A stretch of DNA of 64,000 nucleotides from an uncultured Atopobiaceae bacterium (lineage in GTDB: Bacteria; Actinomycetota; Coriobacteriia; Coriobacteriales; Atopobiaceae): positions 165,163 through 229,162 of the forward strand of contig CALULO010000002.1 of NCBI GenBank assembly GCA_944321515.1, in the 5' to 3' direction. How positions within the stretch are numbered: position 1 is the first letter of the stretch; each line of letters begins with the position of its first letter. The translations under genes and the position numbers were made by a program. The notes below the pieces were generated by a model. It made no database searches. It was not told the DNA's origin and saw only the letters and a program-made list of their open reading frames with translations. Below, piece by piece: positions 2,518 to 4,849 of the stretch.

Positions 2518-3486
2518 ATGGCAGATTCCAAGACGACTGACGAGAAGCGCGAGGACGAGAAGCCCGTCGAGAAGACCGGCGAGAAGGGCGAGAAGACCGG
2601 CGAGAAGGGCGCGGGCAAGGGCGGCGCGCCCGAGGTCGTGGACGAGCCCGGTGCGCGCTGCGGCCTGCCCACCGCGGCGTGGGTGGTCGTGACCGTGGTG
2701 GTGCTCGTGGTCGGCGTGCTGGCGGGCCACTTCCTGTTCGGAGGGTCGGGCGGCGTGGCGCTCTCCGGCCGTACGACGCTCTCCGCGGGCGAGCTTGACA
2801 GCACCATCGCCACCTACACCTACGAGGGCCGCAGCAGCAACATCACTGCGCGTGAGGTGCTTGAGGAGATCAACGGCTCCAGCCTTGGCGCCAACGATGA
2901 CGGCACCTACGACGTGCCCGCAGCCTCCGACGTGGTCTCCTATGCGCAGAACCAGATCCTGCTGGCCCAGGCCGAGGACCAGGGCATCACCGTCTCGGAC
3001 GACGAGCTCTCCGAGTTCGCGAGCACCAGCTTCGGGACGAGCGACTACGACACCATCGCCTCCAGCTACGGCATCGACGCGGAGACCGTGCAGAGCATGC
3101 TGCGCGAGACGCTCTCCATCCGGAAGCTCCAGGACAGCGTTGTGACCACCGAGCTCCCCGACCAGCCGACCCAGCCCACCGCGCCCGCCGACGGCGAGGA
3201 GGACACCCCCACCGCTGACTACGCGAGCTACGTGATTGCCCTTCTCGGCGACGAGTGGGACGCCGACGCCAACGACTGGGCCCGCACGGACGGCGACTAC
3301 TACGCCACGCTCTCCAGCTACGAGATCAGCAACGACTCGGCCACCTACGCGGCGGCCAGCGCGGCCTACTCCGTGGCGTCCAACCTCTACCAGACCGCCT
3401 ACTCGCAGCGCTCGGACGAGTGGAACACCTACACGGACGCGCTGCTCTCGCAGGCCACCATCCAGCTCGGCTCGCTGGCTGAGTAG
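2518..3486 (+). CDS. Membrane-anchored SurA/trigger-factor-like protein
   Basis: 322 residues. A charged cytoplasmic N-terminus of about 50 residues contains KTGEKGE repeats. One hydrophobic segment follows (residues about 54-76, TAAWVVVTVVVLVVG), and the rest is extracellular. Residues about 110-210 resemble the SurA-N chaperone helices: VSYAQNQILLAQAEDQGI, then VSDDELSEF and a repeated helical hairpin. No peptidyl-prolyl isomerase domain is evident, so a chaperone or adaptor role at the cell surface is the best guess. The acidic, Ser/Thr/Tyr-rich C-terminal half is typical of secreted actinobacterial proteins. The next gene starts 9 bases later. Confidence 0.7.
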   Translation: MADSKTTDEKREDEKPVEKTGEKGEKTGEKGAGKGGAPEVVDEPGARCGLPTAAWVVVTVVVLVVGVLAGHFLFGGSGGVALSGRTTLSAGELDSTIATYTYEGRSSNITAREVLEEINGSSLGANDDGTYDVPAASDVVSYAQNQILLAQAEDQGITVSDDELSEFASTSFGTSDYDTIASSYGIDAETVQSMLRETLSIRKLQDSVVTTELPDQPTQPTAPADGEEDTPTADYASYVIALLGDEWDADANDWARTDGDYYATLSSYEISNDSATYAAASAAYSVASNLYQTAYSQRSDEWNTYTDALLSQATIQLGSLAE

Positions 3487-3495
3487 GGGGCAGGC

Positions 3496-4686
3496 ATGCG
3501 TGTGGCGATAAGCTCGTGCCTGCTTGGCGTCCCGGCCCGCTACGACGGGGGCTCCAAGCCGTGCGACGAGGTCATTGAGCTTGCCAAGAAGGTGGAGGTG
3601 TGCCGCGTCTGCCCGGAGACGGCGAGCGGCCTGCCCGTCCCTCGCCCGCCCGCGGAGCAGCGGGACGGTCGCGTCTTCCTCTCCGACGGGACGGACGTGA
3701 CCGAGGATTTCGACCGGGGCTCGGAGCGGTGTCTGAAGGCGGTACACCGCGCGCAGCCTACGCTCGCCGTACTCAAGGCAAAGAGCCCGTCGTGCGGGGT
3801 CGGTCTGGTCTACGATGGAACCTACTCTGGAAGACTGATACCGGGCCAGGGCGTCTTTGCCGAGAGGCTCGAGAGGGAGGGGATCTGCGTGGTCACCGAG
3901 AACACCGTCAAGGCGTGCAAGCCGAGTGTCGAGCACCCCGTAGCCATCGTCCTGGGGAGCGGCCTGGGGCACCTTGGCTCGCTCGTGCGCCCCGTTCGCC
4001 GCATCGACTACCGTGACATCGAGGGCTTCCCCGTGGACGCGCGCCCGGTGGCGGGCCACAGCTTCGAGGCCACGGTGGGCACCATCGACGACGTGCCGGT
4101 GGTGGTCTACCCCGGTCGCATCCACCTCTATCAGGGATACTCCGCCGCTGAGGTGACCTCGCTCGTGCGTCACGCCCACCACCTTGGCTGCCGTGATATC
4201 GTCTTCGCCTGCGCCACGGGCGCGGTGCCGGGCCAGGCGCACGTGGGCCTGGGTATCCTCACGGACCAGATCAACCTCACCGGGCGCAACCCGCTGGCCG
4301 AGTGGGACGGCCTGCGTGAGGTGGAGAGCCCGTTCGTGGACATGAACGAGGCGTACTCGCCCTACCTGCGCACCATCGCGCGCGGCGTGGCCGACGACCT
4401 TGGCATCGCCGTGGAGGAGGGCGTCTACGCCGGCGTGCTCGGCCCCTGCTTCGAGACGCCGGCCGAGGTGGCCGCGCTGCGTTCGCTCGGCGTGTCCTAC
4501 GTGGGCATGAGCACCGTCAACGAGGTCATCATGGCCAAGGCCCTTGGGATGAACGTGCTCGGGCTCACGCTTGCGGCCAACGAGTCCGGCGCGCCGGCGG
4601 TCAGCCACGAGACCGTGCTCCAGACGGCAGGGGAGTACGCCGACCAGTTCGAGCGCCTCGTGCGCGGCGTCCTGCGCCTGCTGTAG
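3496..4686 (+). CDS. Fusion of TudS/DUF523 desulfidase-like domain with purine nucleoside phosphorylase
   Basis: 396 residues. Residues 1-143 are a DUF523/TudS domain: SSCLLG (Cys8), VCPETASGLPVPRPPAE (Cys39) and KSPSCGVG (Cys100) keep the three cysteines that hold a [4Fe-4S] cluster in thiouracil desulfurase. Residues 147-396 are a class II purine nucleoside phosphorylase: GSGLGHL phosphate loop, PGRIHLYQGYS, DQINLTGRNPL, GPCFETPAEVAALR and VGMSTVNEVIMA, with the base-binding Asn in LAANESG. The phosphorylase part is slightly short at its N-terminus (about 250 instead of 270-290 residues), the missing helix being replaced by the fused domain. One reading frame covers both without interruption. 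The fusion suggests linked salvage and sulfur removal for thiolated nucleosides or bases; that is inference. Confidence 0.88.
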   Translation: MRVAISSCLLGVPARYDGGSKPCDEVIELAKKVEVCRVCPETASGLPVPRPPAEQRDGRVFLSDGTDVTEDFDRGSERCLKAVHRAQPTLAVLKAKSPSCGVGLVYDGTYSGRLIPGQGVFAERLEREGICVVTENTVKACKPSVEHPVAIVLGSGLGHLGSLVRPVRRIDYRDIEGFPVDARPVAGHSFEATVGTIDDVPVVVYPGRIHLYQGYSAAEVTSLVRHAHHLGCRDIVFACATGAVPGQAHVGLGILTDQINLTGRNPLAEWDGLREVESPFVDMNEAYSPYLRTIARGVADDLGIAVEEGVYAGVLGPCFETPAEVAALRSLGVSYVGMSTVNEVIMAKALGMNVLGLTLAANESGAPAVSHETVLQTAGEYADQFERLVRGVLRLL

Positions 4687-4773: not shown

Positions 4774-4849
4774 GCCAGCTTAGCTCAGTTGGTAGAGCAC
4801 CGCTCTCGTAAAGCGGGGGTCACCAGTTCGAGTCTGGTAGCTGGCTCCA
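4774..4849 (+). tRNA. tRNA-Thr (anticodon CGU)
   Basis: 76-nt cloverleaf. The acceptor stem GCCAGCT pairs with AGCTGGC, the D stem is GCTC/GAGC, and the anticodon stem CCGCT/AGCGG encloses loop CTCGTAA with anticodon CGT at 4807-4809. The T stem is ACCAG/CTGGT with loop TTCGAGT, and the discriminator is T followed by an encoded CCA (4847-4849). It reads ACG threonine codons. Confidence 0.96.

Follow-up and report, generated by a model that had tools for sequence, protein, structure and literature searches.

A TudS desulfidase-purine nucleoside phosphorylase fusion protein in two related families of gut bacteria

Results

A fusion gene with conserved neighbours

We analysed a window of 64,000 nucleotides (the whole stretch of DNA). 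The gene at 3496-4686 on the plus strand starts with ATG and encodes 396 amino acids in one open frame with no internal stops (Table 1). Pfam matched PF04463 (2-thiour_desulf) to residues 3-136 (E 8.5e-40; profile 1-140 of 141) and PF01048 (PNP_UDP_1) to residues 148-394 (E 2.2e-36; entire profile covered). An initial annotation of this DNA had described a single 396-residue frame joining TudS to a purine nucleoside phosphorylase (PNP), and the two full profile matches and the unbroken frame bear this out. Genomes that carry the fusion share the locus, with the SurA-like gene upstream and the tRNA-Thr gene downstream. Elsewhere in the window, the ORF at 203-913 ends in a His/Cys-rich repeat (648-913; CGHDHG... 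type) that, from its composition, is probably metal-binding.

Table 1. Coordinates of the fusion gene, its parts, its neighbours and the TudS-GNAT fusions of other genomes
Feature	Position	Strand	Basis or remark
TudS-PNP fusion gene	3496..4686	+	396 aa + stop; single copy in genome
TudS (DUF523, PF04463) domain, residues 1-142	3496..3921	+	Pfam, fold match
Cys8 codon, putative [4Fe-4S] ligand (TudS Cys10)	3517..3519	+	alignment to TudS
Cys39-Pro40-Glu41: putative [4Fe-4S] ligand (Cys43) and catalytic Glu (Glu45)	3610..3618	+	alignment; invariant in 23 fusions
Ser97-Pro98-Ser99-Cys100: putative catalytic serines (Ser101, Ser103) and third [4Fe-4S] ligand (Cys104)	3784..3795	+	alignment
Junction, residues 135-149: last TudS helix (135-141) straight into PNP strand 1	3898..3942	+	alignment, model
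Class-I PNP domain (PF01048), residues 144-396, without its own N-terminal helix	3925..4683	+	Pfam, NCBIfam, structure
Arg208, His210, Tyr212 (human Arg84, His86, Tyr88), phosphate/ribose site	4117..4131	+	alignment; invariant in 23 fusions
Cys239 at human Asn115 position, signature of this PNP lineage	4210..4212	+	alignment
Phe319-Glu320 (human Phe200, Glu201), purine recognition	4450..4455	+	alignment
Asn362 (human Asn243), purine recognition	4579..4581	+	alignment
SurA/PrsA-like gene, conserved neighbour	2518..3486	+	ends 9 bases upstream of fusion start; synteny; weak Pfam SurA_N below cut-off
tRNA-Thr(CGT), conserved downstream neighbour	4774..4849	+	synteny
TudS-GNAT fusions	L065:1103-2206, L102:901-1953, L103:1631-2749, L104:1146-2258, L107:1096-2322, L114:1569-2585		Pfam PF13302

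The AlphaFold2 model of the full chain was of high confidence (pLDDT 95.9, pTM 0.93), and the two domains are predicted to hold a fixed orientation in it. Among solved chains, the C-terminal part came closest to PNPs and the N-terminal part to TudS (6z92). Comparison with 19 close relatives indicated purifying selection on both halves (dN/dS 0.24 for TudS and 0.13 for PNP); the junction was as conserved as the two domains (dN/dS 0.06, from few codons). A chance ORF is ruled out by the full Pfam domain matches together with these dN/dS values, and an assembly error by the presence of the full-length fusion in 94 species. We conclude that the TudS-PNP fusion is genuine, intact, old and widespread in two related families of gut bacteria.

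The N-terminal domain retains the TudS residues

Modelled alone, the TudS part matched the TudS structures 6zw9 and 6z9x (Z 22.7, rmsd 1.8 over 142 residues, 40% identity), and the next unrelated fold reached only Z 6.0. All three cluster cysteines are kept, as first annotated: Cys8, Cys39 and Cys100 align with Cys10, Cys43 and Cys104 of the TudS crystal sequence. In the same alignment, Glu41, Ser97 and Ser99 correspond to the catalytic Glu45, Ser101 and Ser103, and Arg15, Tyr16, Pro98 and Tyr106 correspond to Arg17, Tyr18, Pro102 and Tyr110. Seven of these residues (Cys8, Cys39, Cys100, Glu41, Ser97, Pro98 and Arg15) were invariant across 23 diverse fusions. Roles in the uridine pocket of TudS have been reported, with Arg17, Tyr18, Pro102 and Tyr110 docked around the uracil, ribose and phosphate of 4-thio-UMP (PMC10611767). 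All residues reported to hold 4-thiouridine nucleotides are kept in the fused domain, and its pocket is predicted from the alignment to be the canonical uridine pocket.

The likeness to TudS (thiouracil desulfidase, DUF523Vcz; PDB 6Z92-6Z96, 6ZW9) extends over the whole 142-residue domain, including the cluster, the catalytic residues and the uridine/phosphate contacts. However, that enzyme stands alone, whereas here TudS is the N-terminal half of a two-enzyme protein.

The domains are joined without a linker

Structural alignment to solved PNPs begins at model residue 144, which corresponds to PNP residue ~19-25. Because TudS superposes over residues 1-142 and PNP from 144, the model leaves no linker between the domains. 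The first ~20 residues of the PNP are predicted to be gone, with the TudS helix 135-141 in their place, in agreement with the earlier suggestion that the PNP had lost its N-terminal helix to the fusion.

The C-terminal domain is a diverged class-I PNP

The PNP part superposed from residue 144 on T. thermophilus PNP 6tk9 (Z 36.2, rmsd 1.8 over 250 residues). Ser155, His188, Arg208, His210, Tyr212, Phe319, Glu320, Met338, Ser339 and Asn362 align with residues of the phosphate, ribose and purine sites of human PNP, so that the phosphorylase motifs named in the initial annotation are indeed kept. The equivalents of human Ser33, Arg84, His86, Tyr88, Phe200, Glu201, Met219, Ser220 and Asn243 are all present. 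Those of Glu201 and Asn243 were retained in fused PNPs with almost no exceptions, and the pocket is predicted to be a canonical 6-oxopurine pocket (Glu320, Asn362).

Family scores were low. The PNP part exceeded the cut-off of PRK08202 (purine-nucleoside phosphorylase, NCBIfam; 229.6 bits, cut-off 218) and was just over that of TIGR01697 (197.9 bits, cut-off 197.1). It failed TIGR01700, the inosine/guanosine-specific PNP I equivalog (183 bits vs a cut-off of 293.35); the two unfused Coriobacteriia PNPs tested were likewise below this cut-off (279-284 bits). On PRK08202 the fusion lineage scored 220-253 bits, far under the unfused Coriobacteriia PNPs (320+). Cys occupies the Asn115 position in almost every fused protein and PNP-only relative, whereas deeper-branching Coriobacteriia PNPs keep Asn. 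Because of the low PRK08202 and TIGR01697 scores, the failed TIGR01700 match and the Cys in place of Asn115, we regard the fused PNP as a diverged one, and its substrate may be altered.

The domain resembles the class-I (trimeric) PNPs of T. thermophilus (6TK9) and C. perfringens (8SWU) and E. coli XapA in fold (Z up to 36.2) and in its phosphate, ribose and purine residues. Unlike these proteins, it has the last TudS helix in place of the N-terminal helix, Cys for Asn115 and a low inosine/guanosine equivalog score.

Distribution

The full-length fusion was found in 94 of 398 sampled Coriobacteriia genomes and spans 24 genera in two families. Eighty-three of these genomes belong to the host's own family (f1, Atopobiaceae by named loci) and 11 to family f3, which, judged by kinship, is probably Coriobacteriaceae/Collinsella. 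In the other Coriobacteriia families, TudS and PNP are encoded by separate genes. Among the matches listed in the phylum sample there was no fusion outside Coriobacteriales. No plasmid or phage record covered 80% of the fusion query, and the fusion was not found in viral contigs. Scanning contigs with peptides of close relatives returned Atopobiaceae-type loci only. In one genome (G044; L068:2072-3261) a mutation or a sequencing error interrupts the fusion frame within the PNP part.

One fusion event and repeated domain loss

We found that the fused proteins of f1 and f3 group together in both the PNP and the TudS trees. Forms reduced to one domain nest within the fused clade: PNP alone in f1 genus g13 and at three points in f3, TudS alone in f1 genera g5 and g15. 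The PNP-only descendants still have the last TudS helix at the N-terminus, a scar of the junction (e.g., L072 MAFEDEIRACKPSVEHPVAIV; in L081 the helix is retained near the protein start (MDEKLVEFCKPSMEHPVAIV)). Because of this scar and the nesting, we interpret the separate forms as products of later domain loss. The trees point to a single fusion event before the f1/f3 split, followed by repeated loss of either domain, and within f3 PNP-only forms arose on three or more occasions. The initial annotation had named the occurrence of the two parts as separate genes in close relatives as a sign of assembly error. Such forms do exist; they arose by later domain loss, and it is likewise ruled out that the closest relatives have the two genes side by side.

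The surroundings of these loci are conserved: upstream lie the 187-aa ORF and the SurA/PrsA-like gene, as far as the stretch examined extends, and downstream lies tRNA-Thr(CGT). At L084 and L090 there was no tRNA inside the stretch examined. Two loci of genus g15 (L069:2086-2919 and L070:2386-3129) encode TudS followed in frame by a remnant of ~100 aa at the PNP position, which is open and not recognised by Pfam.

In family f9, separate TudS and PNP-like genes are adjacent in the same order, 61-94 bases apart, and an ORF related to the 187-aa one lies upstream of them. The f9 PNPs branch beside the fused clade (UFBoot 100/SH-aLRT 94) on a long branch, they lack both purine-recognition residues, and the gene pairs adjoin MtnA-like (IF-2B family) or AdoHcyase genes. 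Despite the lost purine residues, the long branch and the different neighbours, this arrangement looks like the pre-fusion state. Adjacent TudS and PNP-like genes beside MtnA-like (IF-2B) or AdoHcyase genes lie at L062:499-3211 and L063:3037-6043, and their PNP-like proteins may form a distinct nucleoside phosphorylase group.

The f9 pairs bear on two alternative explanations. The fusion might be neutral, the stop codon between two neighbouring salvage genes having been lost with no benefit from coupling. The shared gene order, the nearby relative of the 187-aa ORF, the position of the f9 PNPs beside the fused clade and the several losses of each domain are consistent with this. However, full-length maintenance across 24 genera of two families, purifying selection and a junction as conserved as the domains argue against it, and we judge it fairly unlikely. 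Alternatively, the diverged PNP might now serve a thiolated-pyrimidine pathway, as a phosphorylase of 4-thiouridine before TudS acts or of the product uridine afterwards. The Cys for Asn115, and the f9 TudS gene beside a PNP-like gene without both purine residues, would fit. In contrast, the fused PNPs almost always keep the Glu201 and Asn243 equivalents, PNP-only descendants without TudS retain the same signature, and the MtnA-like and AdoHcyase neighbours of the f9 pairs indicate methionine salvage instead. We regard such a pathway as quite improbable.

Fused and free TudS replace each other

The genome that contains the window has no TudS other than the fused one. The fusion also contains its only class-I PNP, since the sole other PF01048 gene is an MTA/SAH-nucleosidase-like ORF (identified by sequence only). 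Genomes carrying the fusion had no second TudS. In f3, free TudS was present in 0/11 clear fused genomes vs 30/33 non-fused genomes (Fisher p 5e-8, kinship ignored; G220, with two partial hits at contig ends, was omitted). Of the f3 genomes whose fusion had lost TudS, 6/7 had a free TudS. The two free TudS proteins in the tree (L067 and L080) form a separate clade with Lys in place of Arg15. Fused and free TudS thus substitute for each other between genomes, and the fused domain therefore most likely does the usual TudS task, salvage of 4-thiouridine or 4-thio-UMP. In Atopobiaceae genus g13, TudS was lost and no free TudS gained, so TudS is dispensable there.

We found thiI, the maker of s4U in tRNA, in 58/58 genomes tested. 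s4U-containing tRNA is therefore a plausible home-made source of substrate; thiI can also serve thiamine synthesis. There was no intact copy of mnmA in the genome's own assembly (92% complete), and it was present in nine relatives.

Other TudS fusions

TudS architectures have been reported as 58.9% stand-alone and 40.1% fused to DUF1722 (RudS; PMC11417400), which leaves about 1% for all others. Like RudS, the protein described here has TudS at the N-terminus of a fusion. Unlike RudS, whose DUF1722 partner directs it to tRNA, its partner is a PNP. Membership in RudS is ruled out, as Pfam places PNP_UDP_1 behind TudS and gives no DUF1722 match. RudS is the precedent for an added domain redirecting TudS to tRNA (PMC11417400), and by analogy the fusion might remove s4U from intact tRNA. 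Given that DUF1722 is absent and that TudS is here joined to an intact metabolic enzyme instead of an RNA-binding domain, we consider this very improbable.

Genomes of f2 (Eggerthellaceae-like) and f10 encode TudS with a C-terminal GNAT acetyltransferase (PF13302; Table 1). The f2 proteins have TudS at the N-terminus, in the same order as the TudS-PNP fusion, and differ from it in having an acetyltransferase as partner. We did not find the TudS-GNAT architecture in the literature searched. At L106:965-2041, TudS is followed by a C-terminal part of ~190 aa with no Pfam match.

Discussion

We think it reasonably probable that the fusion is a bifunctional RNA-salvage enzyme, one protein that carries out two salvage reactions in parallel. 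We favour two parallel jobs because of the kept pockets, the exchange of free and fused TudS, the presence of thiI and the published preference of TudS. TudS enzymes studied so far prefer 4-thio-UMP (PMC10611767), and C. difficile TudS removes 4-thiouracil toxicity (PMC12210855).

In the proposed mechanism, the N-terminal TudS would carry a [4Fe-4S] cluster on Cys8, Cys39 and Cys100, whose open iron would bind the sulfur of 4-thiouridine compounds, of which 4-thio-UMP is the best known as a substrate, from degraded tRNA or from the gut. Glu41, Ser97 and Ser99 would aid water in replacing the sulfur, giving UMP or uridine and sulfide. The C-terminal PNP would convert inosine or guanosine and phosphate to the base and ribose-1-phosphate; the purine residues argue for these substrates, and the low family scores leave room for change. 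The two reactions would use different products of the same RNA breakdown, with no product passed from site to site, and the fusion would combine both steps of salvage in a single gene and a single multimer, presumably a trimer.

No natural substrate is known that both domains would accept, because one pocket is that expected for uridines and the other that expected for 6-oxopurines, and class-I PNPs of this kind are not, to our knowledge, known to cleave uridines. The choice of a PNP over a pyrimidine enzyme as fusion partner is not explained by two parallel salvage jobs.

The initial annotation had proposed a single enzyme for thiolated nucleosides or a purine-directed desulfidase. On the latter reading, the PNP would free 6-thiopurines for TudS to convert to hypoxanthine or guanine, or TudS would desulfurate the nucleoside first. 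No substrate class other than thiopurine nucleosides could serve both domains: class-I PNPs are known to accept 6-thiopurine nucleosides, and the thiopurine C6=S is the chemical counterpart of the 4-thiouracil C4=S. The fixed domain orientation predicted by AlphaFold2 would also suit this proposal. However, the TudS residues that sandwich uracil and hold phosphate are unaltered, a free TudS of another clade replaces the fused one, and we know of nothing that would supply thiopurine nucleosides naturally where these bacteria live. The literature searched contained no paper tying TudS to thiopurines and no known family defined as a thiopurine (purine-directed) desulfidase. Canonical separate pockets, the replacement by free TudS and the repeated loss of each domain alone do not support the proposal, which we hold to be unlikely. 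It is distinctly doubtful that gut Atopobiaceae and their Collinsella-like relatives cleave and desulfurate natural or drug-derived thiopurine nucleosides in one protein, which would be the first purine-directed [4Fe-4S] desulfidase.

We found no paper on a TudS/DUF523-PNP fusion in the literature searched; automatic domain databases may list it. TudS and class-I PNPs were already known separately, and the protein that joins them is a second TudS fusion, parallel to RudS. The TudS field is young and has so far comprised the stand-alone form (4-thio-UMP salvage) and the DUF1722 fusion (tRNA eraser). A lineage-wide PNP fusion connects the removal of sulfur with the salvage of nucleosides in bacteria that are common in the gut. 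It is a compact system in which to ask at which level (nucleotide, nucleoside or base) thiolated products of RNA breakdown are processed. If thiopurines are also accepted, it would be relevant to the alteration of thiopurine drugs by gut bacteria.
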